Below are positions 4,056 to 24,719 of a stretch of DNA of 45,458 bases, one piece after another. Within the stretch, counting starts at the first letter, position 1. The number at the start of each line of letters is the position of its first letter. The notes below the pieces were generated by a model. It saw nothing but the letters and a program-made list of their open reading frames with translations, did no database searches and had not been told where the DNA came from. The position numbers and the translations under genes are program-made. The stretch comes from Phycisphaerae bacterium (GTDB taxonomy: Bacteria; Planctomycetota; Phycisphaerae; Sedimentisphaerales; Anaerobacaceae), in contig PWDX01000221.1 in assembly GCA_003553245.1 (NCBI GenBank), positions 1 through 45,458 of the forward strand, written 5' to 3'.

Positions 4056-5453
4056 TCATGCGTTTGCCGAAACTGAAGTTTCGATATCGGATTGCTTGAG
4101 ATTGTATTGCTTTACCTTGGCGTATAGGGTTGCTCGGGTTATTCCAAGCAGCGAGGCGGCTTTGGTCTTTTGCCAGCCTGTTTCATAAAGCGCTCTTCTT
4201 ATGAGCTGTTTTTCGGCTTTGGATAGAGAGAAATCATTGAAGTTTTCTTTCGGGGCTATAGGCGGATGTTCGTCTTCGATGTTGTCACAGTTGAATATTA
4301 TACTGCTGCACCCTATCTTATCGGTTGTTTCGAGCATAATAGCTCGTTCTATAACATTTTTCAGTTCGCGCACATTGCCTGGCCAATGATGTTGTGATAA
4401 TTGTTCGGTCGCCAGGTTTGTCATCGATTTAATCTGGTCGGCCTTGCCGGGACATACCATAGATGTCCTGATGAAATAATCTGCCAGCAGAGCGATATCC
4501 TGTTTTCGCGAGGGAGCCCGTAACGGGGGCAGATTGACCGGGCAGATGTTGAGGCGATAGTACAAATCTCTGCGAAACTCGTTTTTTTCGATTTGTTTTA
4601 CCAAATTTCTATTGCTCGAGGCGATGATAGTCGCTTTGCAGGTTATATCGGCAGTGCCGCCTACCTTTCGGAATGTCCTGTCCTGCAGGACTCGCAGCAG
4701 CTTTGCCTGCAAGTCAACCGGCATTTCGCTGATTTCATCGAGCAGAAGTGTTCCGTCTCCGGCCAGTTCGAGCAGTCCGGTTTTTTCTCGCTCGGCGCCT
4801 GTGAATGCCCCCTTTACATGGCCGAATAATTCACTTTCGAGCAGGTTAGCCGTCAGGGCGGCACAGTTTACAGCTACGAATTTTTTATTGCCGTGGCGCA
4901 GGTAATGCACCGCTCGTGCAGCCAGTTCCTTGCCTGATCCTGTTTCGCCGACTATTAAAACCGGATTGCACCGGCTTTCGGCTACGAGTTTTATCATTTG
5001 GAAAGCTTTTCGCATAGCCGGGCTTGTACCGACCATCGAAACGGCCTGTGCGGCTTCATCACAGAAATACTCTTTCTTAGAGGGAATTGTTTTTTCATTA
5101 TCCTGTTTTACGGCAAAAGCGATATCCCTTAGACGATTAAAATCTGCTGTGCCGTTGATAATGTCGTACAGTCCCGCTGCAAGGAGCTGTTCTGTCTGGT
5201 TTTCCGTCAGGTTGTCGAGGCTTACAGCGACAGTTGGCACAGGGCTTGTTGCAACGGCAGATTCCCGAATGAACGCCCTTATCCTGTCAGAATCAAAGCG
5301 ATGATCGAGAATAACCATATCCGGCTCAACTGTTTGTGTAATATCGACTGCTTCGCCAAGCGTGTCGGCCTGGAACATCTGTCCAGCGACATCCGCCGCC
5401 ATTTGCTGGATTCTGGTTTCCGTACTTGCTACAACAATTCTTTTCAGTGCCAT
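4056..5453 (-). CDS. Sigma-54-dependent transcriptional activator with degenerate receiver domain (FleQ/FlbD-like position)
   Basis: A 465-residue three-domain bacterial enhancer-binding protein. Residues 1-115 look like a receiver domain, but the acidic pair after the first strand is replaced (VVAST) and the conserved lysine region reads INGTAD, so only the acceptor-like D50 (VILDHRF) survives. The central AAA+ domain has Walker A GETGSGKE (169-176), the sigma-54 contact motif GAFTGA (215-220), Walker B LLLDEI and the NNVRE-like PGNVREL block. Residues 426-452 form a Fis-type helix-turn-helix. An upstream in-frame ATG at 5531 lacks a ribosome binding site, so 5453 is preferred. It is divergent from the flagellar operon that begins with a sigma-54 promoter, and is therefore the probable activator of flagellar genes (inference). 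FleQ proteins likewise have degenerate receivers. Confidence 0.93.
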   Translation of the reverse strand: MALKRIVVASTETRIQQMAADVAGQMFQADTLGEAVDITQTVEPDMVILDHRFDSDRIRAFIRESAVATSPVPTVAVSLDNLTENQTEQLLAAGLYDIINGTADFNRLRDIAFAVKQDNEKTIPSKKEYFCDEAAQAVSMVGTSPAMRKAFQMIKLVAESRCNPVLIVGETGSGKELAARAVHYLRHGNKKFVAVNCAALTANLLESELFGHVKGAFTGAEREKTGLLELAGDGTLLLDEISEMPVDLQAKLLRVLQDRTFRKVGGTADITCKATIIASSNRNLVKQIEKNEFRRDLYYRLNICPVNLPPLRAPSRKQDIALLADYFIRTSMVCPGKADQIKSMTNLATEQLSQHHWPGNVRELKNVIERAIMLETTDKIGCSSIIFNCDNIEDEHPPIAPKENFNDFSLSKAEKQLIRRALYETGWQKTKAASLLGITRATLYAKVKQYNLKQSDIETSVSANA

Positions 5454-5916
5454 CCGTGCTCTGGAATTAATTACAAATTTATAATATTCAGTAATGCTCA
5501 ATAAATTAGATAGTGTCCCATAAATCGACATTCGATGTGATGTGACTTTAATTTTTTTATAGGACGGACCAATAAAAAGTTTATTTTTACGCTGTTATCG
5601 GCACACTCGGGAGAGAATTTACAGATTATAGGACTTAAAAAAGTCAAAATCTCGGCAAGAAAGACAAGAAGTTTTCCGGCCTGCATCGAGTTCGGAAAAA
5701 ATCTCCGCCTGTAGGAAAATTTGTCCCTTTAAGCAAATCACTGTACAGGTCTTTACCATTGTTACCTTATGCATTGGAGCCGTAAGTTCTTTTTTAGAAG
5801 CAAGTTAGGGGGCTCGATTGCGCTATTTTTTATTGGTGGCACAGCAATTGCATTGTTAAGCCTCAGACCGAGAACTGTAAATAAAAATTTTAAAACAGCT
5901 TTGCCGAGGAAATGAT
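5454..5916. other. Gene-free regulatory region between sigma-54 activator and flgD
   Basis: About 460 A/T-rich bases with no convincing coding frame. It contains the sigma-54 promoter at 5837-5851 and must carry the promoter of the divergent activator gene. A perfect 8-base palindrome CTGTACAG at 5741-5748 lies about 95 bases upstream of the -24 element, the distance at which sigma-54 activators usually bind; calling it an activator site is speculative. A low-quality open frame on the minus strand (5498-5686) shows no family features. Confidence 0.6.
5837..5851 (+). promoter_or_regulatory. Sigma-54 (-24/-12) promoter of the flgD operon
   Basis: TGGCAC at 5837-5842, five spacer bases, then TTGC at 5848-5851, with GG and GC at the strict sigma-54 spacing; this matches the consensus TGGCAC-N5-TTGC fully. 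The predicted transcript start near 5863 gives a leader of about 54 bases before the flgD ATG. The divergent neighbour encodes a sigma-54 activator with an intact GAFTGA motif, which supports the call. Confidence 0.88.
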
Positions 5917-6528
5917 ATGAGTGCTTTAAGCGGTTTAAAAAGTGCCAGTGACATTCAGATGGATTATATGAAGCTGCTGGTAACTCAGCTTCGTAACCAG
6001 AATCCTATGGAACCGCTGGACAATAACGATATGGCTTCTCAACTGGCTCAGTTTTCTTCGCTTCAGCAGCTCGAAAGTATCAGTAGCAATTTCAGCGATG
6101 TGCTTTCGGCAGTCGAGCAAAGCTACGGTAGTGGCCTGATTGGCAAGGAGGTCCGTTATTTCGGCAAGCAGGAAGACGGGGAAAAGGAAGTATTAAAGGG
6201 CGTTGTCCAGGGCATGTTCAAGGACATAGACGACAACAACAAAGTAAAGCTTGTCGTTGATGAAAATATAGTCGAGTTGAAGGATATTGTGGGGGTGAGT
6301 AATAATGAAGGTTCAGCCCAGTTGGACGCGATAAGTTCCGGCTTTGATTACATGCTCGGAACAGTTCAGAGAGATTACGCAAATTCGCTTATAGGGCGCG
6401 AGGTTACATTCGGCCCCGAGGGCAACATAGGAACAGTTGAGCGGGTTTTCGAGGGCGAGCAAGGGCTTAGGCTCGTTGTGGACAGTAACGAACTAAGTCT
6501 TTCGGATATAACGGGCGTAAATATTTAA
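5917..6528 (+). CDS. flgD: Flagellar hook-assembly scaffold FlgD with duplicated C-terminal module
   Basis: FlgD caps the growing hook and is needed for polymerisation of FlgE outside the cell. Residues 12-60 match the conserved N-terminal region (MKLLVTQLRNQNPMEPLDN, then SQLAQFSSLQQLESI). The rest is made of two similar modules, residues 59-127 and 142-201, each starting with an S-x-L-I-G-[KR]-E-V strand and ending L-V-V-D-x-N-x-x-x-L-x-D-I-x-G-V. Many short FlgD proteins have one such module or an FlgD_ig fold; two copies are unusual. A GAGG ribosome binding site lies close upstream. It is the first gene after the sigma-54 promoter, and flgE follows after 44 bases. Confidence 0.92.
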   Translation: MSALSGLKSASDIQMDYMKLLVTQLRNQNPMEPLDNNDMASQLAQFSSLQQLESISSNFSDVLSAVEQSYGSGLIGKEVRYFGKQEDGEKEVLKGVVQGMFKDIDDNNKVKLVVDENIVELKDIVGVSNNEGSAQLDAISSGFDYMLGTVQRDYANSLIGREVTFGPEGNIGTVERVFEGEQGLRLVVDSNELSLSDITGVNI

Positions 6529-6572: not shown

Positions 6573-8279
6573 ATGAGTTTTGCTTTAGGCGCCGGAGTAA
6601 CAGGTTTGCAGGCACACCAGAAGATGCTTGATGTAGCGGGCAATAATCTTGCGAATATGAACAGCACCGCCTATAAGGCTAAGAATATTACCTTTGCCGA
6701 GTTGCTAAGCCAGACTCAGAGGTCGGCTACGCAACCAACAGGCACTGTCGGTGGTACTAACCCCCATCAGATGGGAACCGGCGTAGGCATAGCGAATATC
6801 AATGCTAATATGACACAGGGAGATATCGACAGCACGGGCAATCCTCTCGATATGGCAATAGAGGGTGAGGGGTATTTTGTTCTAAGTGACGGTCAGCAGA
6901 ATGTTTTCACCCGAGCAGGAGAATTTGGCGTCGATTCAGCTTCAAATCTTGTTGACCCTGCCACCGGTTATAAGGTTCAGCGAATAGGTTCTACTGGCGA
7001 GGAGGACAATTTCCAAGTGCCTGGCGACAGTAATATTCGCATTCCTTATGATGCGGCGATGCCGGCTAAGGCGACCGAGTCTATAAGACTGGCAGGTAAT
7101 CTAAGCGCCGATAATGTTCTATCCACAACGCAGACACAAATGCTTGATTCGGCTGTAAGTTACAGCTTCGACGGCAGCACTGCAGACGGTTCAAGCAGAA
7201 TTGACGATTTAGACCAGTTCACGGGAGGACAATTAGGGGCCGGCCAAAGCGGAATCATCAGCATAGCTGGTATAACTCGCGACGGCCAGTCACTGTCCGA
7301 CTATATCATTGACAGGGACGGCAATGATAATGCTCTGAGTTTTGAAATTGATGAAAACGGTCAAACTCTAAATGATTTCATCGACCATCTTAATAATGAT
7401 GTATTTGATGGTATCGCCACCGCGGAGCTTGTCAACGGCAGGATACGCGTTACAGACAGCCAGAGCGGGTACAGCAAGCTGGATATGGACTTTTCATACA
7501 GCGGTGACGGTAATCTCCAGACACCGAGCTATTTCGAGATGACCACAGTGGGCGGCGATGAAGTTCAGAATATCAATATTACGACCTACGACAGTCAAGG
7601 TAGCAAGCAGGTTCTTGCAGGTTCCTTTGTTCGGACCAACACCGAAAATGTATGGGATCTGGTACTGACCTCAATCACCGGGAATGTGCAAAATATCGAT
7701 ATGTCGGACAGGCGAATCGAGCAGATTAATTTCGATTCACATAACGGAGCTTTTATGGGGGTCGAAGGTGACAATGATGAGTTTACGATCACATTTGGAC
7801 ATGATACCGATAATCCTCAGAGAATATCGCTTGATATGGGCACTGCAGGCCATCTTGATGGACTGACTCAATTTGCCGGTGACAGCACTGCGGTCGCCAG
7901 AGAGCAGGACGGTTATGAAGCCGGAAGCCTTTCAACGGTTTCGGTCAGTAATGAAGGTATAATTATCGGTGCATTTTCAAATGGTATCCGTAAGGATATA
8001 GCGGCTGTTCAGATAGCACAATTTCAGAATCCTGCGGGACTTGAGAGTGTAGGTGATGGTTACTTCCTTTCTTCGGCAAATTCCGGCGAACCCGTAGCGA
8101 CCCAGGCTATGGCCGGCGGCGCGGGGACTATTCATGGCAGCTCGCTTGAAAAGTCAAATGCCGATGTTGCCAGTGAGTTTGTCAATATGATTCAGGCCCA
8201 GAACGGATTTCAAGCCAATGCAAGGACTATTCGGGTAGCTAACGATGTACTTACTGAATTAACCAATCTGATAAGATAA
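6573..8279 (+). CDS. flgE: Flagellar hook protein FlgE
   Basis: FlgE forms the hook, the universal joint linking rod and filament. The 568 residues begin with the axial-protein signature (GLQAHQKMLDVAGNNLANMNSTAYKA style; here in full at residues 11-35) and end with a heptad-rich D0 helix (SSLEKSNADVASEFVNMI and LTELTNLIR). It is longer than the roughly 400-residue enterobacterial hook protein because of surface domains. Residues 208-328 form an inserted module that is clearly similar to residues 218-323 of FliD encoded at 18992. A GGAG ribosome binding site precedes the ATG. The LAGNLSAD and FMGVEGDND regions fit the D1/D2 hook domains. Confidence 0.95.
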   Translation: MSFALGAGVTGLQAHQKMLDVAGNNLANMNSTAYKAKNITFAELLSQTQRSATQPTGTVGGTNPHQMGTGVGIANINANMTQGDIDSTGNPLDMAIEGEGYFVLSDGQQNVFTRAGEFGVDSASNLVDPATGYKVQRIGSTGEEDNFQVPGDSNIRIPYDAAMPAKATESIRLAGNLSADNVLSTTQTQMLDSAVSYSFDGSTADGSSRIDDLDQFTGGQLGAGQSGIISIAGITRDGQSLSDYIIDRDGNDNALSFEIDENGQTLNDFIDHLNNDVFDGIATAELVNGRIRVTDSQSGYSKLDMDFSYSGDGNLQTPSYFEMTTVGGDEVQNINITTYDSQGSKQVLAGSFVRTNTENVWDLVLTSITGNVQNIDMSDRRIEQINFDSHNGAFMGVEGDNDEFTITFGHDTDNPQRISLDMGTAGHLDGLTQFAGDSTAVAREQDGYEAGSLSTVSVSNEGIIIGAFSNGIRKDIAAVQIAQFQNPAGLESVGDGYFLSSANSGEPVATQAMAGGAGTIHGSSLEKSNADVASEFVNMIQAQNGFQANARTIRVANDVLTELTNLIR

Positions 8280-8284
8280 CGGAG

Positions 8285-9574
8285 ATGACAACATTACCTG
8301 AGACAGCTACGAGATGGTTTATTCTGTCTTTGACGCCTCTTGAAAGGCTGGAAGCGGCCACAAACCTGGCAGGAGGTGATCTTCTGCGCCAGCGATGGTT
8401 CATTGCATCAGGGCTGGTCACTATCGCTGTCCTGGGTGTTCTGTTTTTTATTGTAACATATCGACGAAAAAGTCAGGATTACCGAGCCAGTGAAGCTGCA
8501 TTTTATGCGTCGGCACAAAAACGCGGATTAAATTCAGATGAATGTAAGATACTCCGCGAGATTGCCGAGCGTGCGGGTCTGTCACAATACGAAACCATAT
8601 TTACAATGGACAAAGCTTTCAATGTTGGAGCAAGTCTGATTATAGAAGAGGCATTACTTCGCAAGCCTGGCCGACAAAGCGCCAATCTCCGTCGCAACAT
8701 TGCTTTTCTGCGTCAGAAACTCGGCTTTCAGGAACGGACAAGCTATGCGATGAAAATGAAGAAACTAAGCAGCAGGCAAATCCCCGTTGGTAAAAAGCTT
8801 CATATCACTCGTCGTTTAAACCCGGACCGTCAGTCAACGGATTTGGAATGTACTCTTATACGAAATAATGAAATGGAGCTTGTTATTCGCCTGCCTTTAC
8901 GGGTTGAGACCGAGCCGGGCGAGTTTTGGCGTGTTTATTATCATCTGGGAGCCTCGGTATGGGAATTTGACAGCACGGTCGTCGATTATAATGGCTTTGA
9001 GCTTTCACTTAGCCATAGTGACGAAATCCGCTACATCAATCGGCGTAGATTCTTGCGTGTCCCTGTGCGTAAGCAAGGCTTTATAGGTAAATTCCCGTTT
9101 CAAAAAATTCATCGTAAATCTGTAAAAAAAATCGACATTCCACCTGTTGACAGAACAAGCTTTGGAGAGGTCGCAGACTGGGGTCTCCCGAAGTTTGTGC
9201 CTGCTATTATTACCGAACTTGCCGGGCCGGGACTTAGAGTAGAAGCAGATATTGATGTGAAAGTCGGCGACAGAGTTCTTGTTGCTTTCAAAATCGATGA
9301 AACACCTGTCAGGAATAAAAGAGGAATCAAGCAAGAACAACTGGTTGATGTAAAATTGTTTGAGGAGTTAGGGCATGTTCGCCATATTCAGCAGGCTGGT
9401 GAAGGGATTTCAATAGCGGTTGAGCTTGCGGTCGCAACAGACGCTGCCGTTAATGAGCTTATTCGAGCGACAAACGCCGAGGCTGTTCGCGCTCACGCCG
9501 AACATCAGGATCAGATTGAGCACGACGCTGCGGAATCGGAAGTAGTGCATGCATCGGGAGGAAGCGATGTCTGA
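8285..9574 (+). CDS. Membrane-anchored PilZ-domain protein, putative c-di-GMP receptor
   Basis: A 429-residue protein that I recognise only by its PilZ region. Residues 39-58 form one transmembrane helix (FIASGLVTIAVLGVLFFIV). Residues 60-160 are charged and helical. Residues 165-245 resemble the N-terminal barrel of YcgR-like proteins. The PilZ signature follows: R254-x3-R258 in NRRRFLRVPV, and ELAGPG (311-316) in place of the usual [DN]-x-[SA]-x-x-G, so c-di-GMP binding is likely but has E in place of D/N. It sits between flgE and flgF in the hook operon and overlaps flgF by 8 bases. YcgR proteins brake or bias the motor; a similar role is an inference. The GGAG motif touches the ATG, so translation may rely on coupling from flgE. 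Confidence 0.82.
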   Translation: MTTLPETATRWFILSLTPLERLEAATNLAGGDLLRQRWFIASGLVTIAVLGVLFFIVTYRRKSQDYRASEAAFYASAQKRGLNSDECKILREIAERAGLSQYETIFTMDKAFNVGASLIIEEALLRKPGRQSANLRRNIAFLRQKLGFQERTSYAMKMKKLSSRQIPVGKKLHITRRLNPDRQSTDLECTLIRNNEMELVIRLPLRVETEPGEFWRVYYHLGASVWEFDSTVVDYNGFELSLSHSDEIRYINRRRFLRVPVRKQGFIGKFPFQKIHRKSVKKIDIPPVDRTSFGEVADWGLPKFVPAIITELAGPGLRVEADIDVKVGDRVLVAFKIDETPVRNKRGIKQEQLVDVKLFEELGHVRHIQQAGEGISIAVELAVATDAAVNELIRATNAEAVRAHAEHQDQIEHDAAESEVVHASGGSDV

Positions 9575-10292
9575 GATGATAAAACAAGTAGGCTCAAGTA
9601 TCGAAGCTCTTCGCAAAGAGTTCGAAACCATAACACATAATCTGGCCAATGTAAACACGGCCGGGTATAAAAGACGCACCAACAGTTTTTCGAGAATACT
9701 TCAACAACACCTCGGTGAAAAAGAATCTGGTGGTGAGATTCAGCTCGAAGGCAGCTTCGATTTTAATCAGGGCGCATTAACCCAAACTCACCGCTCGCTG
9801 GATATGGCAATATACGGCAAGGGGTTTTTCGTTATCGAGACACCCGACGGGCCTGTTTATACGCGAAACGGGAGCTTTCAATTGAACCAGAACGGCCAGC
9901 TTGTTGACGGTTTAGGCAGGCTGGTCGCCGGTGAGGCAGGGCCTATTGGTTTACCGGCTGACACCGAGGTGTCACAAATTACGATAAGTAAGGACGGCGC
10001 GGTATCTTTTGACGGCGCAGAAGCAGGGCGGCTTAGGATAGTTGATTTCGGAGAAGACGAAAAAGAGCTTGTGCCCTGCGGACATAGCAGCTTTCGAGCG
10101 CGTAACGACGCCGAACCGGAACCAGCACAAAATGCTGTGATCAAACAGGGCTATCAGGAAGCAAGCAATGTCCAAATGATAGAAGAGCTTGTTGATATGA
10201 TTATGGTAAGCAGACTTTACGAAGCGAATATGAAAATGATAACAGGCACAACCGAAGCCACAAGAAGCCTTATGAGCGTGGCCATGGGATAA
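9567..10292 (+). CDS. flgF: Flagellar basal-body rod protein FlgF
   Basis: FlgF is a proximal/distal junction rod subunit of the flagellar basal body. The 241-residue protein starts with the axial D0 segment ETITHNLANVNTAGYKRR and has the GALTQTHRSLDMAIYGKGFF block common to FlgF/FlgG, then a C-terminal D0 helix (SNVQMIEELVDMIMVSRLYE). It is shorter than FlgG in the next gene and lies before it, the usual flgF-flgG order. The ATG at 9567 has a GGGAGG ribosome binding site five bases upstream, which decides against an in-frame ATG at 9549. The start overlaps the end of the PilZ gene. Confidence 0.9.
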   Translation: MSEMIKQVGSSIEALRKEFETITHNLANVNTAGYKRRTNSFSRILQQHLGEKESGGEIQLEGSFDFNQGALTQTHRSLDMAIYGKGFFVIETPDGPVYTRNGSFQLNQNGQLVDGLGRLVAGEAGPIGLPADTEVSQITISKDGAVSFDGAEAGRLRIVDFGEDEKELVPCGHSSFRARNDAEPEPAQNAVIKQGYQEASNVQMIEELVDMIMVSRLYEANMKMITGTTEATRSLMSVAMG

Positions 10293-10325: not shown

Positions 10326-11111
10326 ATGTTAAGAGCTTTTTCAACAGCGGCAACGGGAATGTCGGCACAGCAGCGAATGGTCGATGTAACCTCACATAAT
10401 CTTGCGAATATTAATACATCTGGCTTTAAGCGAAGCCAGATAAACTTTCAGGATTTGTTATATGATAAGATGCGCCAGCCCGGTGCGGAAGTTGCATCCG
10501 GAATAATATCACCAAGCGGAAAGGAAATTGGAAGCGGCGTAAAAGTAGCCGGGACAGTCAAAGTTTTCTCACCCGGAGAGCCTCAGAATACCGGCAGAAA
10601 GATGGATATCGCCATTCAGGGTGACGGATTTTTGCAGGTAAGCACCCCTAACGGCGACCTGCGTTATACGCGCGACGGTGCGCTTCAAATAAATGCCGAT
10701 GGCCAGATAGTTACCGGAACAGGGTATATTGTTGAGCCTTCAATATCAGTTCCTCGTGACGCTGTATCGGTGGATATCGGAAAAGACGGAACAGTCAATG
10801 TAACCGACCAAAACGGTAATACCAGCTCGGTGGGGCAACTGCGTCTGGCAAAATTTATAAATCCCTCCGGCTTATCCAGCGAAGGCGATAATCTACTTGC
10901 CGAGACCGAGGCAAGCGGATCGCCTACAGAGGGAACCGCCGGAGAAAGAGGTTTCGGTACTATACAATCCGGCTTTCTTGAAAAGTCCAATGTCGAAATG
11001 ATAACCGAGCTTGTTAATCTCATCACGGCTCAACGGGCTTATGAAACTAATAGTCGTGCAATACAGGCCGGTGACGGAATGCTGCGCACGGCAAACCAGA
11101 TAGTAACTTAA
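10326..11111 (+). CDS. flgG: Flagellar distal rod protein FlgG
   Basis: FlgG builds the distal rod of the basal body. At 261 residues it has exactly the usual length. Features are the N-terminal TAATGMSAQQRMVDVTSHNL helix, NLANINTSGFKRSQINFQDLLY, the LDI-type GRKMDIAIQGDGFLQV block, and the C-terminal QSGFLEKSNVEMITELVNLI followed by QRAYETNSRAIQ. AAGGAG lies in front of the ATG. It is followed at ten bases by flgA, an order (flgF-flgG-flgA-flgH-flgI-flgJ) common in bacteria outside the enterics. Confidence 0.97.
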   Translation: MLRAFSTAATGMSAQQRMVDVTSHNLANINTSGFKRSQINFQDLLYDKMRQPGAEVASGIISPSGKEIGSGVKVAGTVKVFSPGEPQNTGRKMDIAIQGDGFLQVSTPNGDLRYTRDGALQINADGQIVTGTGYIVEPSISVPRDAVSVDIGKDGTVNVTDQNGNTSSVGQLRLAKFINPSGLSSEGDNLLAETEASGSPTEGTAGERGFGTIQSGFLEKSNVEMITELVNLITAQRAYETNSRAIQAGDGMLRTANQIVT

Positions 11112-11121
11112 AAGGTGTTTT

Positions 11122-12087
11122 ATGAGAAAATATAGAAAACTTATACCTCTGATGACACTGCTTTTTTTGTCGGCATCCGCTGTTAAAGCCCAAGACACTG
11201 CAACCGTGTATCTGCCGCGAGAAGTAACGGTTAATAGCAGCGATGTTGTCCTCGATGATGTAGCTATCATATCCGGAGATAACGAAATAGCTCAAGCTGC
11301 CGGGGCGGTATCTCTGGGAAACTTTAATCGTGCTGACCAGAATCTTGTTCTGGACAGAGCCGTGATTATGAGCAGGCTCAGTTCAGAAGGCATAAGCAGA
11401 AATTCCTTTCGGATAACAGGGGCCAAGCGTGTTACAGTAAACAGAAAAAATAAAGTAATAGATTCCGAGAAGATCATCGCTGGCGCCAGGCGATATTTGA
11501 AAAACAATTTTGAGTCTTCAGGTTGGGCAGAACTTGCCCAGGTCGGTTCCTGTGATGACCTTACCGTGGGTGCGGGTGTTGGTGAATTGGAGCTTTATTA
11601 CAGGCTTGTCAGCGCCGACGAAAACAGTGCTGCCGTAGGCGTTGATATTTATGCCGACGACGAAAAGCTTGCAGAGCGTGTAATCCGCTTCCGGGGTAAA
11701 TACGAAAGGCGTGTAGCAATAACTAAAGAGAGAGTCCAGACGGGGGAAGTTTTAACCCCGGAAAATGTGAAGATAGAAAAAAGACTTTCCGATACTCCTC
11801 AATCCGGCGGTTGGCGAGAGCCTTTTGGAATGGTGGCAAGGCGCGACCTCGCCCCCGGCACAGAGCTTAATTCGCAGGTTACCGGCAGGGCGGAATCGCC
11901 GAAGGTTGTCGAGCGTAACGAGCGAGTCGTGATAAAAATTAACACCGGCGGACTGAAAATTACCGCCCAGGGTCAGGCTTTACAGCAAGGACGGGTCGGT
12001 GAGCAGATATGGGTTCGTAACAGTGATTCACAAAAAAGGCTGCCGGCCATAGTAAGAGAAGACGGAAGTGTTGAACCGGTATTTTAA
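11122..12087 (+). CDS. flgA: Flagellar P-ring assembly chaperone FlgA
   Basis: FlgA is a periplasmic chaperone that helps FlgI assemble the P-ring. The 321-residue precursor has a signal peptide ending near AVKAQD (residues 20-25). The C-terminal part contains a SAF-type domain, with VQTGEVLTPENVKIE and the DLAPGTELNSQV stretch, ending in the FlgA-typical IKINTGGLKITAQGQALQQG. The N-terminal half (residues 30-190) is less conserved and longer than in Escherichia coli FlgA (about 220 residues in total). Position between flgG and flgH-flgI supports the assignment. Confidence 0.9.
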   Translation: MRKYRKLIPLMTLLFLSASAVKAQDTATVYLPREVTVNSSDVVLDDVAIISGDNEIAQAAGAVSLGNFNRADQNLVLDRAVIMSRLSSEGISRNSFRITGAKRVTVNRKNKVIDSEKIIAGARRYLKNNFESSGWAELAQVGSCDDLTVGAGVGELELYYRLVSADENSAAVGVDIYADDEKLAERVIRFRGKYERRVAITKERVQTGEVLTPENVKIEKRLSDTPQSGGWREPFGMVARRDLAPGTELNSQVTGRAESPKVVERNERVVIKINTGGLKITAQGQALQQGRVGEQIWVRNSDSQKRLPAIVREDGSVEPVF

Positions 12088-12100
12088 CAGGAGCAGTTTT

Positions 12101-12715
12101 ATGTTGAAAAAAATGATATTATTAACTCTGATTGGTCTGTTTCTTTGCATTCAGGCAGAAACCTCGGCAAATTCAATATGGGCAAGACGAAGCAAAGACG
12201 CTCCGATGCCTTATGCCGATGATACTTCAAGAAATATCGGCGATGTATTGACGATTTTGATCGATGAAAGAAGCGCAGTTGAAAATGAGGTTGAAAGGCT
12301 TCTCGATCGAAGCGCCCAGCGAGAGCATAATTTTGACGGAAACCTTAATATAGATAATATTACTCCAAGAATGCCTGGCTTTACTATGGAGGCAAGCTCC
12401 AGCAATACACTTGACGGCAGAGCCGAATATGAGGATGCGCGGCGTTTTACAGATGCTATAACTGTAACGGTCATAGATGTTTTACCTAACGGTAATCTTG
12501 TCGTGCTGGGCGAGCGAAACAGGGAAACCGGCGGAGATCCGCATGTTCTGGAAATAAGCGGAATCGTAAGACCAAGCGATATTGGTTATGATAACACTAT
12601 TGAGAGTCAGCGTGTCGCCAACTTCAATGTAGTTGCCAGAGGGGACGGAATCTCCGAACCTTACACCAGGCCAGGCTGGCTTGGAAGGATATTCGATGTT
12701 CTCTGGCCGTTCTGA
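12101..12715 (+). CDS. flgH: Flagellar L-ring protein FlgH
   Basis: FlgH forms the outer-membrane L-ring bushing. Typical features are SIWARRSKDAPMPYADDTSR, the NIGDVLTILIDERS strand-helix, the DVLPNGNLVVLGERN block and SGIVRPSDIGYDNTIESQRVA (all FlgH signatures). The start at 12101 is chosen because an AGGAG motif lies 7-8 bases upstream and because it exposes a signal peptide at the N-terminus; an in-frame ATG at 12068 lies inside flgA. FlgH is usually a lipoprotein, but here the only early cysteine is in LFLC-IQ, which is not a good lipobox; cleavage by signal peptidase I near TSA-NS looks more likely. The protein has 204 residues. Confidence 0.93.
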   Translation: MLKKMILLTLIGLFLCIQAETSANSIWARRSKDAPMPYADDTSRNIGDVLTILIDERSAVENEVERLLDRSAQREHNFDGNLNIDNITPRMPGFTMEASSSNTLDGRAEYEDARRFTDAITVTVIDVLPNGNLVVLGERNRETGGDPHVLEISGIVRPSDIGYDNTIESQRVANFNVVARGDGISEPYTRPGWLGRIFDVLWPF

Positions 12716-12747: not shown

Positions 12748-13851
12748 ATGAAAAGCCATTTAATCGCGATAGTCTTAGCTATCCTGTTGTCCGGCGCTGC
12801 TAATGGCGAGAGGATAAAGGATATCGTGGAAGTTCACGGCGTAAGAGGCAACCCTCTTACCGGTATAGGTCTGGTTGTGGGTTTGGCTGATACAGGCGAT
12901 ACATCGCTGCCTTCACGACAAATGCTTAATAATATACTTCGCAGGTCAGGCCAGGTACTAACTCCCGATCAGATCGAGGGCGGAAATATCGCGATGGTAA
13001 TGGTTACGGCTGAGCTGGGTCCCTTTGACAGAGAAGGTTCTCGGATTGATGTAAATGTTTCCTCGATTGGCGACGCCGACAGCTTGCAGGGCGGAGTATT
13101 GCTGCCTACCCCACTGGAAGGACTTGACGGGCGAGTTTACGCTGTCGCACAGGGCGGGCTGTCACTGGGTGGATGGCGAGCAGCAGGCGAAGAAGCGGCT
13201 ATTACAAAAAACCATCAGACCGTAGGCAGAGTGCCCGGCGGGGCAACTGTCGAGCAAAGTGCACTGGCTAATTTTATTAATTATGCTCAGGGAAGGCGAT
13301 ACATCAAACTCAATCTGATAAACAATGATTTCACAACCGCCCAGCGAATCAGCGAAGCGATAAACCATGACAACAACGATGCCGCGACGGTGCTGGATGC
13401 GGGCACGGTTCGTGTTCAAATCCCCGACAACATAGCCGACAGAGATGTGATAAAGTTTATGACCGAGATTATGGATCGTCGCGTTGTCGTGGATATGCCT
13501 GCCGTTGTGGTGATTAACGAGAGAACCGGTACGATAGTTGTTGGTCAGAATGTTGGAATATCACAGGTGGCAATTTCGCAGGGAAGCCTTGTAGTAACGG
13601 TTCAGGAAACGGCCAGGGTCTATCAGCCGACCGCGCCTTTCTCTGACGCAGGCACCACCGAGGTTGTCCCCGAAACACTTATAGAGGTAGAGGAGCAGGA
13701 ACAAACGCTCATACCAATGCCCGAAATAGTGACGGTCTCAGAACTTGCGACAGCACTGAACGCAATAGGAGCTACACCGCGTGATCTTATAGCTATATTC
13801 AACGCTTTGAAAGAGGCCGGTGCGCTTCAGGCACAATTGAAAATAATGTGA
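12748..13851 (+). CDS. flgI: Flagellar P-ring protein FlgI
   Basis: FlgI forms the P-ring around the rod in the periplasm, implying a peptidoglycan layer beneath an outer membrane. The 367-residue precursor has a signal peptide (residues 1-20, ending NGE). The mature start RIKDIVEVHGVRGNPLTGIG and the following LVVGLADTGD are family signatures, as are VSSIGDADSLQGGVLLPTPL and the C-terminal TVSELATALNAIGATPRDLI. AAGGGG precedes the ATG. It sits between flgH and the rod-binding gene. Confidence 0.97.
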   Translation: MKSHLIAIVLAILLSGAANGERIKDIVEVHGVRGNPLTGIGLVVGLADTGDTSLPSRQMLNNILRRSGQVLTPDQIEGGNIAMVMVTAELGPFDREGSRIDVNVSSIGDADSLQGGVLLPTPLEGLDGRVYAVAQGGLSLGGWRAAGEEAAITKNHQTVGRVPGGATVEQSALANFINYAQGRRYIKLNLINNDFTTAQRISEAINHDNNDAATVLDAGTVRVQIPDNIADRDVIKFMTEIMDRRVVVDMPAVVVINERTGTIVVGQNVGISQVAISQGSLVVTVQETARVYQPTAPFSDAGTTEVVPETLIEVEEQEQTLIPMPEIVTVSELATALNAIGATPRDLIAIFNALKEAGALQAQLKIM

Positions 13852-13860
13852 GGTATAATT

Positions 13861-14226
13861 ATGGATATAAGCAAAACGCTGCTTATGGAGCAGATAGGCC
13901 ATTCTAGTAAATTGCCTAACGCGGACAACCACCAGAATCTCGAAGAAGCTCGAAAGAAAGAAATAGCGAAAGAGTTCGAGAGCGTTTTAATCGAGAAGCT
14001 GATGGATAATGTAAAAGACAGCGTCAATTGCATCGGAGAAGAGAAAGACGCCGCCGCACAGCAGATTGACGGAATGTTCTGGAGTCTGCTTGGAAGGGAG
14101 CTTGGACAACAGGGTGGCTTTGGGCTTTGGAAAGATGTTCATCAGTTTCTTGAGGACAATGCCGGTCAGGTAGAAAATAATCAGGCCGAGTCCGAACAGG
14201 GACAATCAATAGACAAGGTCGGGTAA
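13861..14226 (+). CDS. flgJ: Rod-binding protein, FlgJ N-terminal domain only
   Basis: A 121-residue protein matching the rod-binding domain of FlgJ: KEIAKEFESVLIEKLMDNVK and the AAQQIDGMFWSLLGRELGQQGGFGLW stretch (residues about 65-90). The muramidase domain found in enterobacterial FlgJ is absent, which is normal for many phyla where a separate enzyme opens the peptidoglycan. The C-terminus is a polar Glu/Gln-rich tail. GAGG lies upstream of the ATG. Its stop codon overlaps the flgN start by one base (TAATG). Confidence 0.85.
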   Translation: MDISKTLLMEQIGHSSKLPNADNHQNLEEARKKEIAKEFESVLIEKLMDNVKDSVNCIGEEKDAAAQQIDGMFWSLLGRELGQQGGFGLWKDVHQFLEDNAGQVENNQAESEQGQSIDKVG

Positions 14227-14741
14227 TGACAGCCGATATGATACGACAAAAAACATCCCAATTGCTCAGTGTGCTTGATAAGGATATCGAGCACATTGAG
14301 CAGACATTGTATCGTCTTGATGAATTAAGGTCTCTGGTGATAAAGCGGGACGCAAAGTCTCTTGAAGTCCTGCTTGAGAACATTCAGGTCGATGCCGACG
14401 GCTATGCTCAAACAGAAGCCCAGCGGCATCAGTTGAGATGCGAAATTGCCGAGCTTCTTGGCCGCGATGTTAATCGGTTTAGGCTCGGTGAATTGGCCGA
14501 GATACTCGGTGAGCCTTCGGCAACGCCGCTTATGAAAAAGCGACAAACTCTGCGACAACTGGCAGAAAAGCTGATAACCGAGCATAAAGCAACTGCGATG
14601 CTGTTGGCCGAATGCGCCAGATTCAATGGAGAGCTTTTGAGCAGACTGATTCGTGCGGTGTCAAATAATTCGGTAACATACGGGCGAACAGGGAAAACAA
14701 GTAAGCAAAACGAAGCGGCATTTATGAATATGGAGTTTTAA
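14226..14741 (+). CDS. flgN: FlgN-like export chaperone for hook-associated proteins
   Basis: A 171-residue, largely helical protein without signal peptide. Sequence conservation of FlgN is weak; the call rests on size, helical heptads (residues 8-70 and 100-145), and position directly before flgK and flgL, whose products FlgN escorts to the export gate. Translation is coupled to the rod-binding gene by a TAATG overlap. FlgN normally docks on the cytoplasmic domain of FlhA, which is not encoded in the FlhA-like gene of this window, making this chaperone's docking partner an open question. Confidence 0.75.
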   Translation: MTADMIRQKTSQLLSVLDKDIEHIEQTLYRLDELRSLVIKRDAKSLEVLLENIQVDADGYAQTEAQRHQLRCEIAELLGRDVNRFRLGELAEILGEPSATPLMKKRQTLRQLAEKLITEHKATAMLLAECARFNGELLSRLIRAVSNNSVTYGRTGKTSKQNEAAFMNMEF

Positions 14742-14749
14742 GGTATCTG

Positions 14750-16717
14750 ATGGATAGTTTCTCAATAGGCATAAGCGGACTCGGCGCCGCCCAGAAAGGG
14801 CTTGATATTGTCGGCAACAATATCGCTAACGCCGCGACACCGGGCTACCATCGCCAGCGGATAAATCTTAACCCCAGCAGGCTCGTTGAGATGGGTGATA
14901 CGCTTATCGGAGGCGGAGTCGATTTTGCCGGGACAACGCGTATTGTAGATTCATTTCTTGAAGGCGAGATAACCCGCCAGCAATCAACTCTCGGAGAAAT
15001 CGACCAGCAGCTTCAGACGCTTCGCACATTGGAGACTGCTTTTGGAGAATTATCAGCGGGCGAGGGTCTTAGTGAAGCAATAGATGAGTTCTATAATTCG
15101 GTAGAGGAACTTAGCAGATATCCTAATGACAGTATCTGGCAAAATAATGCCCTAAGCTCGGCAAAAGCGATGACGGGCAAGTTTCGCAATCTCTCTGCCT
15201 CCATAAGCGACCTAAAGCAACAGTCGGCGCTGGAGGCCAATGGAACCATCGACCAAATAAATACTCTTGCAGGACAGATTGCCGAGTTGAATTCTGAGAT
15301 ACAATCCGCCGCCGTCCAGGACACCACATTAAATAACACAATGGACCAGCGGGATCAGAGAATTAAAGAACTTGCCGAACTTATCGGTATTGATACTATT
15401 GAGCGGCCTTATGGCGTTATTGATGTTGCTGTAAGCGGAATACCGCTTGTTTCAGGCACCAGTGCCACAGAACTTAGTGCAGGATTAAATGATCAGGGCA
15501 AGCTCGGCCTGGCGGTCGAAGGCGAGGTTGATTTTCGCAGGTTGGCCACCGGTGGGACACTCGGCGGATTGATGAAGCTTCATAATGAACACTTGACAAC
15601 AGCGCAAAGCGATCTCGACAAACTCGCTAATACAATAGCCGGTAGCCTGAATGAATTGCACACAATGGGAGTCGGCTCTTCGGGCTCTTTTACCAACCTG
15701 ACCGGCGACACAACGCGAAAAGAACAGCTTTCTCAAATGCAGCCGCCTATAAGTGACGGAACAATATATATACGAGTTACCGACACCGAAACCGGCCAGA
15801 TCACTCGCCAGGAAGTGCCGATTGATGCAGCTAATGATACTCTTTCCGATGTAGCTGATTATATAACGAACAATATCGACGGAATAAATGCCAATATTGT
15901 TTCATCTCAACTTAAAATCCAGGCCGAGTCGGGATATGAATTTGATTTTATGCCGGCTGTTCTGCCTGAACCAACGAGTGTTTCATTCAGCGGGGATGTT
16001 GAGCAGCCGGAGATTTCACTGTCCGGTGTTTACAGCGAGATGGCTAATAAGACTTATACATTTGAGGTCAGCGGCAGCGGCTCCGTAGGAAATGGGGAGC
16101 TAAAGCTCCAGGTTACAGACAGCAATAATGAAAATGTCACTGAGCTTGATATTGGATCAGGCTATGCGGCAGGGACAAAGCTTGATGTTGGAAACGGAAT
16201 AAAAATAGCCCTTACACCGGGGGAGTTTGAGGCCGGTGACAGCTTTGAAGTAGCTGCCACAGGCATTACAGATACTTCTGGGCTGCTCACTGCCGCCGGT
16301 ATTAACACCTTTTTTACGGGCAGTAAAGCTTCGGATTTATATGTGCATGACGATATAATCGATGCACCCGACCGTATCGCGACATCAATAGGCCCTGGCA
16401 AGACCGACAATGAAAATGTATTGCGAATGGCCGCCCTGAAAGACCGCAACTTTGAGGAACTTAACAGGCTTAGCCCGAGAGAGTTTTACCGAAGAATGGT
16501 TACAGAAATAGGCCAGGAAATAGAATCTCAGAGCATGCGTCGTGATAACACCGAAGCCGTTATCAAAAACCTTGATAACCAGATACAGGAAATCAGCGGT
16601 GTGGATATAAACGACGAAGCAGCGAAAATGCTCCTTTATCAGCAGATGTTTCAGGGAATGTCACGATATTTGAACACTGTCCAGGGTTCACTGCAAACCT
16701 TGATGGAAAGCATGTAA
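14750..16717 (+). CDS. flgK: Flagellar hook-associated protein 1 FlgK
   Basis: FlgK is the first junction protein between hook and filament. The 655-residue protein has the N-terminal axial motif GLGAAQKGLDIVGNNIANAA with the TPGYHRQRINLNP extension and the C-terminal D0 helix with GVDINDEAAKMLLYQQMFQG. Residues 331-398 form a beta-rich insert that resembles Flagellin_IN-type modules (DGTIYIRVTDTETG followed by a LSDVADYITNNIDGI helix), related in style to the inserts of FlgE and FliD. An AAGG motif precedes the ATG. flgL follows after 25 bases. Confidence 0.95.
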   Translation: MDSFSIGISGLGAAQKGLDIVGNNIANAATPGYHRQRINLNPSRLVEMGDTLIGGGVDFAGTTRIVDSFLEGEITRQQSTLGEIDQQLQTLRTLETAFGELSAGEGLSEAIDEFYNSVEELSRYPNDSIWQNNALSSAKAMTGKFRNLSASISDLKQQSALEANGTIDQINTLAGQIAELNSEIQSAAVQDTTLNNTMDQRDQRIKELAELIGIDTIERPYGVIDVAVSGIPLVSGTSATELSAGLNDQGKLGLAVEGEVDFRRLATGGTLGGLMKLHNEHLTTAQSDLDKLANTIAGSLNELHTMGVGSSGSFTNLTGDTTRKEQLSQMQPPISDGTIYIRVTDTETGQITRQEVPIDAANDTLSDVADYITNNIDGINANIVSSQLKIQAESGYEFDFMPAVLPEPTSVSFSGDVEQPEISLSGVYSEMANKTYTFEVSGSGSVGNGELKLQVTDSNNENVTELDIGSGYAAGTKLDVGNGIKIALTPGEFEAGDSFEVAATGITDTSGLLTAAGINTFFTGSKASDLYVHDDIIDAPDRIATSIGPGKTDNENVLRMAALKDRNFEELNRLSPREFYRRMVTEIGQEIESQSMRRDNTEAVIKNLDNQIQEISGVDINDEAAKMLLYQQMFQGMSRYLNTVQGSLQTLMESM

Positions 16718-16742: not shown

Positions 16743-17930
16743 ATGAGCGGTACGCTTAGCAGTATGTATAACAATGTGAGCTACTCACTATCTTCTCACA
16801 TGCGTGCAATCTCACGGCTCCAGGAGCAGGCTGCCACAGGTTCGCGCGTCAATCGCGCCTCGGACGCTCCTTTTGACGCCTATCGTGTCCTTGGTCTGGA
16901 TTCACAAGAGAGGGACTTGTCAAGTTATATTCGCAATCTTGATGACATGACTAACACGCTGGAATTTTCAAGCTCTATAGTCGAGGATATGCTTTCGTCT
17001 GTCGCTGATGTTCATACCCAGCTTACACAGATCACCAGTGGGACATATAACGAAGAGGATCGCCAAAGAATGGCCGAAGGCTTTAATGACATAATCGAAC
17101 AGACATTATCATTGGCCAATACAAAATATAAAGATCAATATCTGTTCAGTGGAGACAGCACCGCTAAGACCCCTTATGTCGCGGTTCGAGACGACCAAGG
17201 CAGAATAGTCGGGATAGAATACCAAGGCAGTGACCAGACCAGAACCACGACAGTCGCCGCCGGAGTTGCCGATTCGCCTTATTTTGTAGGTTCGGAGGTT
17301 TTCGGGGGCCGTGGTTCCGGCCAGGTAGAATTTCTCGGTGATACCGGAGTAAAAGCCGGCACTGGAACATCCAGCACAGCAGGCTACACTTGGCTGGATG
17401 TTACATATAACGAAACCGATGAAGTCTATGAGTTATCAATCGATGGCGGCCAAACCAAAATTCAGGCCGATGGAACCGATAATCAGGCAATAACTCATGG
17501 CCAGACAGGGGATGTTTTATATGTGGATACAACTTCCATCTCACAGACAGGAACCGAACTGGTAAGCACTCAGGGCAGCCACGATGTTTTTGAAACATTA
17601 ATTACAACTCGTGACATACTACAGAATGACCGAGGCCTGTCCGAAACACAAATAAAACAAATGCGAAATCACTCACTAAAAGCATTGGACGAGGTAAAAA
17701 AGACTCTTTCCAATCAGACCGTGCGGACCGGCGCCAAAATTGGTTTTCTGGACAACCTCAAACACAACCTGGACAACATGCAATTCAATGCCGAGTCTGA
17801 AAAAGCCACGATATCCGAAGCTGATATAGCTCAGGTTGTTATAGATATGACCAGGCACCAAAACCTTTACCAGATGTCCCTTGCAGTGGCTGGCAATATG
17901 ATGTCAATGTCATTGTTGAATTATATCTAA
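16743..17930 (+). CDS. flgL: Flagellar hook-associated protein 3 FlgL
   Basis: FlgL is the second hook-filament junction protein and a flagellin homologue. The 395-residue protein has the flagellin-like N-terminal coiled region (ISRLQEQAATGSRVNRASDAP, here residues 24-44, with a DDM and FSSSIVEDML helix) and the C-terminal helix SEADIAQVVIDMTRHQNLYQ with LAVAGNMMSMSLLNYI. LANTKYKDQYLFSGD is the FlgL/FlgE-like hallmark that distinguishes it from FliC. A GAGG motif precedes the ATG. It is followed after 20 bases by a TPR gene, where many bacteria have fliW and csrA instead. Confidence 0.95.
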   Translation: MSGTLSSMYNNVSYSLSSHMRAISRLQEQAATGSRVNRASDAPFDAYRVLGLDSQERDLSSYIRNLDDMTNTLEFSSSIVEDMLSSVADVHTQLTQITSGTYNEEDRQRMAEGFNDIIEQTLSLANTKYKDQYLFSGDSTAKTPYVAVRDDQGRIVGIEYQGSDQTRTTTVAAGVADSPYFVGSEVFGGRGSGQVEFLGDTGVKAGTGTSSTAGYTWLDVTYNETDEVYELSIDGGQTKIQADGTDNQAITHGQTGDVLYVDTTSISQTGTELVSTQGSHDVFETLITTRDILQNDRGLSETQIKQMRNHSLKALDEVKKTLSNQTVRTGAKIGFLDNLKHNLDNMQFNAESEKATISEADIAQVVIDMTRHQNLYQMSLAVAGNMMSMSLLNYI

Positions 17931-17950: not shown

Positions 17951-18589
17951 ATGGAACAAATACCCCGCGATATCGAAGAATACTGTGATTGGCCTCGGGA
18001 TTATAAACAGCTCCAGCAACTGGGAGACTGTTACCGATCAACAGGTGATCTTCGCAAAGCCAACGATTGCTATAACCGCGCCGCATCAGCCGATCCAGAC
18101 CAGCCGGCGCCGTATGTGGGGCTGGGAATGGTCGCTTTTCAAAAGGACGAGCCGGAAAACGCTGATATTGCGTTTCGAGTCGCTGCCAGACTCGATCCCA
18201 ACTGCTCAAAGGCATATATGGGCATTGCGATGGTGGCCCAGCAGAAAGGACTGTATAAGCAGTCTTTTGACATGTATCTTAAATCTCTGGAACTGGACAC
18301 TGATAATCTGACTTCCCTGCTGGGGCTTTTCCAGGCGTCTTGCCAGATGGGTTCTTTCGCACGGGTAATACATTTTCTCGAAGTCTATCTGAAAACACAT
18401 CCTTCGGACACTTCTGTTATGTTCTCGCTTGCGACGCTTTATATGAAAGAAAACCGCCTCGAACAGGCGGAAAAACTGCTGCAAAATATAATCCGACTCG
18501 ATAGCCAAAACAGCGATGCCGCTGATTTACTTGAAGAAGTTCAGCATGACATTGCCTGTAAAAACGCACCGGAGGTACTTGCGGTATGA
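17951..18589 (+). CDS. Cytoplasmic TPR-repeat protein of the flagellar operon
   Basis: A 212-residue protein without a signal peptide, made of about five tetratricopeptide repeats from residue 18 on; clear units are YKQLQQLGDCYRSTGDLRKA, APYVGLGMVAFQKDEPENA, AYMGIAMVAQQKGLYKQS and VMFSLATLYMKENRLEQAEK. TPR arrays bind other proteins, and TPR chaperones are known in type III secretion systems. Its place between flgL and a small helical gene ahead of fliD suggests a chaperone or assembly role in export of late substrates, but that is an inference from position. AGGA lies upstream. Its stop overlaps the next start (ATGA), so the two products are probably made together. Confidence 0.8.
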   Translation: MEQIPRDIEEYCDWPRDYKQLQQLGDCYRSTGDLRKANDCYNRAASADPDQPAPYVGLGMVAFQKDEPENADIAFRVAARLDPNCSKAYMGIAMVAQQKGLYKQSFDMYLKSLELDTDNLTSLLGLFQASCQMGSFARVIHFLEVYLKTHPSDTSVMFSLATLYMKENRLEQAEKLLQNIIRLDSQNSDAADLLEEVQHDIACKNAPEVLAV

Positions 18590-18903
18590 TAAGTCGGACT
18601 CAACCAGACAAACTTTTTGACAAGCTAAAAGAAAATCTGTGCCGCCAAATCTCGGCAGTAGAAAGAGATGATCTGGACTGCCTCGATAATGAACTGGCCG
18701 AGGCAGGGCAAATAGTGAAGCTTTTATCGGAACAAAATTGCTTTGATGATCCTGATTTTACCAGCCAGAAAGAGAATCTGAACGCACTTTACCGAAAACT
18801 GGAGCTAAGCATCGCCGTTCGGAAAACGCAAACCGATGAACAGATAAAAGAAATCAAGCGTGCCGGAAAAATGATACGGACCTACGACCAGCGATCAATA
18901 TAA
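18586..18903 (+). CDS. Small helical protein, FliT-like chaperone candidate
   Basis: A 105-residue charged, almost entirely helical protein that I cannot assign by sequence signature. Two amphipathic helices (residues 6-50 and 57-97) with Leu and Ile heptads and a Lys/Arg-rich tail resemble the build of flagellar export chaperones FliT, FliS and FlgN. Its start overlaps the TPR gene by four bases, and fliD, the client of FliT, follows after an 88-base gap. A FliT-like role is plausible from size and neighbourhood only. It could equally be a partner of the upstream TPR protein. Confidence 0.6.
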   Translation: MISRTQPDKLFDKLKENLCRQISAVERDDLDCLDNELAEAGQIVKLLSEQNCFDDPDFTSQKENLNALYRKLELSIAVRKTQTDEQIKEIKRAGKMIRTYDQRSI

Positions 18904-18943
18904 TCAAATTATTTATACTAACATTTACCCCAAAATTTGACGA

Positions 18944-22590: not shown

Positions 22591-23661
22591 CTAATTGCCG
22601 CCTTTGCCTTTCATCCGGTAAATCATAGCCAGTATTTCTGCCACGGCCACGAAAAGATTCTGCGGTATCGGCTGGCCCGGCTCGACCGAGGAATAAAGCG
22701 TTCGTGCAAGTTCCGGCCTTCTTACAATCGGAACTCCGTGACCGCGTGCAATCTCACGAACCTTTTCTGCCATTAAGTCCGCGCCTTTGGCAACGACCAT
22801 CGGACAATCCATTTCGCCGGGATTATACTTTAATGCCACCGCCACATGCGTCGGGTTAGTCAATACCACATCGGCCTTGGGGACTTCCTGAAGCATCCGC
22901 TTTCGCACCATCTCTGTCTGAAGCTGCCTTATGCGAGATTTAACCTCGGGCGAACCATCGCTATCACGGTGTTCTTCTTTGACCTCCTGCTTGGTCATCT
23001 TCAGTTCCTGTATGTACTTCCAATGCTGATAAATCGCGTCAATGACAGCAATAGGAATCAGCGCAACACATATTCTTATAAGCATCCCCAGGCAAAGAGA
23101 AGCGATACCAGCTATTATTTCACTTGTCCAGGCATATCTAAGGCGGGTCATCTCGTCAAGTCTGTCACGCATATAGAAATAGACTATCAGCGCGACAACG
23201 ACCATCTTAGCTATGGAAATGCCAAGCTTAACCAAAGCTCGAACATCGATAAGTTTCTTAGCTCCCTCAATGGGATTTATCGCCTCCGGCTTAGGAGCAA
23301 GAGCCTGCGTCGAATAATTAAAGCCCGAAATCACAATACATGCAAGTACCGAACCGACCGTCAGGAATAATAGCAGAGGACTAATAGCGAAAACCATACC
23401 GATTATTTTAGAGTTGAAAAAAGCCGTAAATCTATCACCCGATGAAAACACCGAATTATCAATAGCCATCGCATCTTTCATCTGCTCGGTCATCCACCCC
23501 AGCATCGAAGGCCCAAGTAAAGCAAGCCCGAGCATAAGCGCAACAATACACACAGATGCGGGAAGCTCCTCGCTTCGGGCAACCTGGCCTTTTTCGCGAG
23601 CTTTTTTGAGCTTTCGCTGTGTTGGCTGTTCTGTCTTTTCAGCTGCTGGTTGTTCTGCCAT
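22591..23661 (-). CDS. flhB: Flagellar export switch protein FlhB
   Basis: FlhB is the export-gate subunit that switches substrate class from hook to filament. At 356 residues it has the usual length. It shows the N-terminal KTEQPTQRKLKKAREKGQVA segment, four transmembrane helices (about 33-52, 86-112, 143-163, 183-208), and the autocleavage site N269-P270-T271-H272 in LTNPTHVAVALKY, at the same residue number as in Salmonella. The YKPGMD-like region reads YNPGEMDCP. The cleavage residues are intact, so the switch should work. It lies 36 bases upstream of the FlhA-like gene and 17 bases after fliR. Confidence 0.97.
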   Translation of the reverse strand: MAEQPAAEKTEQPTQRKLKKAREKGQVARSEELPASVCIVALMLGLALLGPSMLGWMTEQMKDAMAIDNSVFSSGDRFTAFFNSKIIGMVFAISPLLLFLTVGSVLACIVISGFNYSTQALAPKPEAINPIEGAKKLIDVRALVKLGISIAKMVVVALIVYFYMRDRLDEMTRLRYAWTSEIIAGIASLCLGMLIRICVALIPIAVIDAIYQHWKYIQELKMTKQEVKEEHRDSDGSPEVKSRIRQLQTEMVRKRMLQEVPKADVVLTNPTHVAVALKYNPGEMDCPMVVAKGADLMAEKVREIARGHGVPIVRRPELARTLYSSVEPGQPIPQNLFVAVAEILAMIYRMKGKGGN

Positions 23662-23678
23662 TTATTTATCCCGTTTTT

Positions 23679-24705: not shown

Positions 24706-24719
24706 AATTTACCTCGAAT

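Follow-up and report, generated by a model that had tools for sequence, protein, structure and literature searches.

What switches on the genes for the flagellar hook, rod and rings in a planctomycete of the class Phycisphaerae? The window analyzed here, the whole stretch of 45,458 nucleotides on contig PWDX01000221.1, carries a long run of such genes, a promoter element in front of them and a regulator gene facing away from them. Comparison with the corresponding loci of relatives makes it very likely that a conserved sigma-54 promoter with an upstream site switches on this long hook, rod and ring gene set.

A conserved sigma-54 promoter precedes flgD

The promoter element and the transcript start predicted from it are:

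5837..5851, plus strand: sigma-54 -24/-12 promoter element TGGCACAGCAATTGC of the flgD operon; exact consensus, the same in relatives' loci
5863, plus strand: predicted transcript start, 12 bases past the C of the -12 GC

The element reads TGGCAC-N5-TTGC, with the GG at -24 and the GC at -12 of a sigma-54-dependent promoter, and lies exactly as originally predicted, with a spacing of 65 bases to the flgD ATG (5917). It is the sole exact consensus match within the window, and from the -24/-12 spacing we infer that transcription starts near 5863. Counting motifs in the window gives, by itself, weak evidence for a promoter, because sites with up to one mismatch number five against a shuffle mean of 3.87 and are thus no more frequent than in shuffled sequence. 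Nevertheless, a chance consensus match is next to inconceivable. Flanking DNA was compared for the best 30 of the 89 genomes with flgD, among 119 searched, yielding 29 relatives' loci, one of which (L028) ends at a contig edge and was left out. The exact element stands 41–125 bases ahead of the FlgD match in all 28 remaining loci with upstream DNA, and this conservation argues against chance. Similarly, under a first-order model of the window only about 0.0005 exact matches would be expected in 250 bases (4 in 2 Mb).

The genome-wide scan proposed along with the original prediction was carried out and gave 11 exact TGGCAC-N5-TTGC sites versus 2 for the reversed control pattern. Seven of these lie at most 150 bases ahead of an ORF start; the other four (L002, L004, L005, L008) do not. 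The genome also contains the sigma factor gene on which the prediction depended, with one rpoN match (2e-61).

Gene content and extent of the hook operon

Downstream of the element the following genes are encoded:

5917..6528, plus strand: flgD, hook cap (2.1e-17)
6573..8279, plus strand: flgE, hook protein
8285..9574, plus strand: orf429, membrane protein distantly similar to PilZ, encoded between flgE and flgF; the window's member has no PilZ match
9549..10292, plus strand: flgF, rod (TIGR02490, 178.6 bits, cut-off 178.5)
10326..11111, plus strand: flgG, rod (FlgE/F/G domains; named from gene order)
11122..12087, plus strand: flgA, P-ring chaperone
12068..12715, plus strand: flgH, L ring
12748..13851, plus strand: flgI, P ring (1.9e-114)
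13861..14226, plus strand: flgJ-like (weak, 6.5e-4, under the curated cut-off)
14226..14741, plus strand: flgN, export chaperone
14750..16717, plus strand: flgK, junction
16743..17930, plus strand: flgL, junction (TIGR02550, above cut-off)
17951..18589, plus strand: TPR protein
18586..18903, plus strand: orf105, function not assigned
18992..21064, plus strand: fliD, filament cap; co-directional, shared transcript uncertain

From flgD to the end of orf105 (18903) the genes overlap or are closely spaced throughout and cover 13.0 kb, in agreement with the roughly 13-kb operon of the original prediction. However, the co-directional run continues across an 88-base gap to the fliD stop (21064) and then measures 15.1 kb. 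No further sigma-54-like site (at least 9 of 11 positions, GG and GC intact) was found on the plus strand between 5700 and 21100. On both strands between 3900 and 21400 there are 38 sigma-70-like matches (shuffles 25.7, sd 4.7) and 24 terminator-like matches (shuffles 16.7, sd 4.3). The order flgD-flgE-orf429-flgF-G-A-H-I-J-N-K-L-TPR-fliD, with flhB and fliR convergent, recurs in 8 of 12 relatives' stretches (L193–L200). The stretches of L201, L202 and L203 end early, and in L203 the export genes lie beyond the activator rather than convergent; L204 contains flgD to the TPR gene, and fliD was not found in the following 4 kb. A single transcript of 15.1 kb is thus possible, and 13 kb is a guess.

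Two membrane proteins at the locus caught our attention. By eye, orf429 has an RxxxR motif and is hydrophobic over an N-terminal stretch. PilZ was matched by 5 of 11 members of its family (best 8.7e-6) and PilZNR weakly by one, while the window's own orf429 matched neither; the alignment was built from 10 of 12 relatives (L195 and L200, represented by the wrong ORF, were left out). These family matches raise the possibility that orf429 is a c-di-GMP receptor inside the hook operon. Beside flhB, a 493-aa protein (21073–22554, minus strand) joins the membrane half of FlhA to a BY-kinase/MinD-like domain in which no normal Walker A motif is visible by eye. In its predicted structure (mean pLDDT 69.9) the C-terminal part resembles Wzc-type kinases and MinD. 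A full-length FlhA is encoded elsewhere in the genome (G000:C8). Similar fusions occur in 10 of the 11 relatives' loci read (L226–L234 and L236; L235 is the wrong ORF), seven of which were used for the alignment, and none was found in the 12 stretches L193–L204.

The divergent gene encodes a sigma-54 activator

Upstream of flgD, and transcribed away from it, lies the following gene:

4056..5531, minus strand: divergent sigma-54 activator (enhancer-binding protein); Sigma54_activat 1e-61, HTH_8, GAFTGA

The protein has the composition of an enhancer-binding protein, with a sigma-54 interaction domain of the AAA+ type, a lid and a C-terminal Fis-type helix-turn-helix (PF02954, 2.3e-12), and the GAFTGA motif that it had been said to carry is read directly in its sequence. 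Its start is likely the ATG at 5453 (MALKR...), from where relatives' proteins align. Among the 18 relatives scored, the motif is GAFTGA in 8 and GSFTGA in 10. Matches from named organisms come from mixed phyla and reach at most 48% identity.

For reference, two ordinary receivers encoded in the same genome were included in an alignment of the receiver, whose rows were the window's activator and four distinct relatives (L042 and L244 belong to a single genome), after 5 of 32 loci tried had passed the pattern. It retains the phospho-Asp, but the acidic pair and the Lys are absent in all six aligned rows, and the Thr/Ser position is occupied by Ser in the window's activator and by Gly or Asp in the relatives. 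Having lost the acidic pair and the Lys, the activator may differ from a classical two-component regulator.

Among 29 relatives, 22 have this gene divergent from flgD. The seven in which it does not lie beside flgD comprise three (L027, L028, L043) with at most 562 bases of upstream DNA, one (L030) with 958 and three (L046, L047, L049) with longer flanks, in which another gene adjoins flgD. Across 119 genomes, flgD and the activator occur together in 74, flgD alone in 5, the activator alone in 2 and neither in 38, counts that take no account of shared ancestry. This scoring takes flgD as lacking where its match was weak (E worse than 1e-8; ten cases), and the activator as lacking in G057, which has a partial fragment of it.

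Tandem dyads form a candidate enhancer

Between the activator gene and the promoter element two dyads follow each other:

5693..5707, no strand: first dyad of the candidate enhancer, CGGAAAAAATCTCCG; 14.9 bits with the relatives-only matrix
5714..5726, no strand: candidate enhancer, second dyad, GGAAAATTTGTCC; centre-to-centre distance to the first about 20 bp, with a similar pair at the genome's own fliK

Motif search covered 24 flgD promoters; in 22 the dyad lies between -144 and -163 relative to the promoter element, and in L032 and L033 further up, at -217 and -216. The Gibbs search assigns one site per sequence by design; shuffled k-mer counts, Markov resampling and held-out promoters served as controls. 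The commonest 7-mers occur in 14 of the 24 promoters versus at most 7 in shuffles. Using a matrix derived from 23 relatives, with the window excluded, we obtained 14.9 bits before flgD at -144 (window 5693), a score reached by 9 of 3000 Markov resamples. Before the genome's own fliK the same matrix gave 16.7 bits at -146 (6 of 3000), and there the tandem dyads CGGAAAGTATTTCCG and GGAAATTTCC likewise have centres about 20 bp apart. Pfam identified FliK in this genome as well as in two relatives (the G001 fliK copy, with masked bases, was left out). Five flgD promoters that had failed an earlier filter (L023, L026, L038, L048, L049) were used as held-out tests and yielded 23.9, 23.1, 21.4, 20.5 and 10.4 bits, the lowest from L048; the high scores are not independent, as three of the four come from one genus (g27).

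At other sigma-54 promoters the matrix reaches at most 9.0 bits (27 chaperonin promoters) and 12.4 bits (30 fliO promoters). For the genome's own sites the best scores are at most 6.0 at glnA, hsp20, dnaK and the porin-like gene, 8.4 at groES (-246) and 10.9 at clpB (-240), the last being as rare in shuffles as the fliK match. By score alone the matrix is not specific, with 15.1 bits at position 532 of the window, inside a coding gene, and 14.8 at 30921. The dyads are probably an enhancer, for which 5693–5726 is our candidate, and the divergent activator probably binds this conserved site upstream of the flgD promoter. We also considered that the dyads are solely the promoter of the activator gene itself. 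This was rejected because in L046 and L047 both element and dyad remain with flgD although the activator is not its neighbor.

Further sigma-54 promoters precede fliO, fliK and chaperone genes

On the opposite strand, the window contains a second flagellar promoter of this type:

26051..26065, minus strand: second sigma-54 element AGGCACGAAATTTGC, 37 bases ahead of a fliO start
26119..26135, no strand: dyad TGTATAGTTTTTCTACA upstream of the fliO promoter
22591..26013, minus strand: export genes fliO, fliP, fliR and flhB (fliQ expected between fliP and fliR)

The pattern [ACT]GGCAC-N5-TTGC is present at this site in all 29 relatives' loci, which belong to the best 30 of 89 genomes with fliP, the Pfam test for FliO itself covering the window. 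A dyad of the form TGTC-N9-GACA accompanies it in 17 of 29 relatives, and the motif is positioned at 89–92 bases in 25 of 29. Both arms of TGTATAGTTTTTCTACA depart from the commonest form of this dyad with the pairing kept. In the window, the gene upstream of fliO is a divergent His_biosynth gene, to whose promoter the dyad might have belonged. We rejected this explanation, as the longest upstream frame runs in the same direction as fliO in 26 of 29 relatives; of the other three, L137 has an opposite frame, and no frame was found in L133 and L146.

A third flagellar promoter, elsewhere in the genome, belongs to fliK. In the three relatives examined (G001, G012, G010), the sigma-54 elements before a fliK-type gene and before a flgB-like rod gene face away from each other; G001 and G012 also have such an element before a large TPR gene located downstream of the activator. 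Scores for the promoters of the flgB-like and TPR genes range from 4.5 to 11.8 bits under the fliO-type matrix and from 11.8 to 15.0 under the flgD-type one, so that both dyad types are matched there. In L237 and L244, a large gene of 871 aa and one of about 882 aa (a TPR protein) lie downstream of the activator, each with its own sigma-54 element; at this place the window has a flavodoxin-like gene.

How far, then, does one regulator reach? The original prediction assigned one regulator gene and one promoter to the hook, rod, ring and junction genes as a unit. Its core is supported by the conserved sigma-54 promoter and by the divergent activator that co-occurs with flgD, but the wording is too strong in view of the second promoter before fliO, the third before fliK and the different fliO dyad. 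Given that different dyad, one activator for all flagellar sigma-54 promoters is no more than a possibility. The enhancers might be split, with CGGAAA-type tandem dyads (flgD, fliK) recognized by a single activator that is linked to the flagellum and has a degenerate receiver, dyads of the TGTC-N9-GACA type alone (export genes) read by another factor, and the flgB-like and TPR promoters of relatives as joint targets. We consider this division rather doubtful, and it would not be clean, since both matrices give scores at the promoters of the flgB-like and TPR genes. If true, it would constitute a two-input layout unlike FlrA/FlrC, in which the hook activator is not a phosphorylated response regulator.

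Outside the flagellar genes, sigma-54 elements of this genome precede groES-groEL, dnaK, hsp20, a clpB-type gene, glnA and a porin-like gene (L012, L011, L009, L215, L003 and L007, respectively), with the genes identified by Pfam and the porin-like one weakly. The groES site lies 71 bases before the gene, with no ORF of about 137 aa between them. In the relatives (L162–L190) a site is found 445–673 bases before groES in 27 of 29 loci, mostly ahead of such an ORF; the one tested matched Response_reg (5.9e-12). We considered, and dismissed, that groESL had newly come under sigma-54 control in this genome: the 29 relatives' loci have no site within 400 bases of groES, but 27 have one within 1500. 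A sigma-54 chaperone cluster has already been predicted for Planctomycetota, according to the accessible text of PMC12316311.

Proposed mechanism and alternatives

Promoter, activator domains, dyads, conservation and spacing can be read in the DNA; for binding, activation and the start and extent of the transcript we infer the following course. Sigma-54 RNA polymerase would occupy 5837–5851, while the divergently encoded activator would sit on the tandem dyads at 5693–5726, roughly 140–170 bp upstream of the predicted start. By looping over and spending ATP through its GAFTGA domain, the activator would open the promoter, giving a transcript from about 5863 through flgD to at least flgL and perhaps to fliD. 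The same activator probably drives fliK too, as similar tandem dyads lie there at equal distance. We hold this model, sigma-54 and the divergent activator on the dyads driving the flgD operon and probably fliK, to be quite probable. It is supported by the divergent position of the activator in most relatives and by its co-occurrence with flgD (74/5/2/38); against it stand the five further GAFTGA activators of the genome, any of which could bind the dyads.

The model would need modification if transcription were divided among several units, with flgD to about flgL served by the sigma-54 promoter and later genes such as fliD by inner promoters of the sigma-70 or sigma-28 type. The overlapping or closely spaced genes from flgD to orf105 and the plus-strand interior without a second sigma-54-like site argue for one transcript, whereas several observations would fit a division: a weak sigma-70-like match (18924–18953) in the 88-base gap ahead of fliD, two FliA/WhiG-type sigma factors above the curated cut-off in the genome (at G000:C8, after flhA, and at G000:C109), some relatives in which additional DNA separates flgL from the TPR gene, and L204 without fliD within 4 kb past the TPR gene. 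We regard such a division as possible, if less than probable.

The sigma-54 promoter may also be real but be activated by another enhancer-binding protein on the dyads, with the divergent gene acting elsewhere, for example on the fliO-type dyad. Six GAFTGA activators in one genome and two distinct dyad types ahead of flagellar sigma-54 promoters would accommodate this. Yet the divergent activator is the neighbor of flgD in 22 of 29 relatives and its presence tracks that of flgD, and we find such an exchange of roles quite unlikely.

Comparison with known flagellar regulators

The predicted circuit belongs to the known control of flagellar genes by sigma-54 and enhancer-binding proteins. With FlrA and FleQ of Vibrio and Pseudomonas it shares the GAFTGA AAA+ core, the Fis-type helix-turn-helix and sigma-54 control of flagellar genes, and FleQ is second in the list of solved structures matching the activator, over the AAA+ part. 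Unlike FlrA/FleQ, the window's activator gene is divergent from flgD and the likely dyads lie before hook and hook-length genes. The two-component activators FlrC, FleR and FlgR control middle flagellar genes, and their target class of hook, rod and ring genes would be shared by the window's activator. It differs from them in its receiver, which lacks the acidic pair and the Lys and thus, in the six aligned rows, the full phosphorylation residue set of the FlrC/FlgR type, and in its score of 239.6 with the NCBIfam FlgR model, far under the cut-off of 750. Caulobacter FlbD, which acts at ftr sites, is likewise a sigma-54 activator of hook genes, but with the NCBIfam FlbD model the activator scores 280.8, again far under the cut-off of 750. 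As far as the accessible text of PMC3930126 goes, FlrA switches on the early genes (MS ring, C ring, export) and is a c-di-GMP-binding protein, and the control of flagellar gene classes by FlrA, FlrC and FlbD is reviewed there.

For Planctomycetota, the accessible part of PMC12316311 predicts sigma-54 control of flagellar and chaperone genes, classes with predicted sigma-54 promoters in our genome as well. It gives enrichment by class, and in that part of its text the dyads and the divergent activator of the window are absent. In the portions available, PMC3162934 ties sigma-54 to flagella in general and PMC10945688 does not mention rpoN. A literature search over titles and the beginnings of abstracts, covering few subscription journals, returned nothing on the divergent activator or the flgD dyads.

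The understanding of sigma-54 flagellar control is unchanged by this circuit. What the locus provides is a concrete promoter, a candidate enhancer and a candidate activator for the hook operon, conserved over many genera of one family, so that its motility circuit becomes testable with one reporter and one protein.
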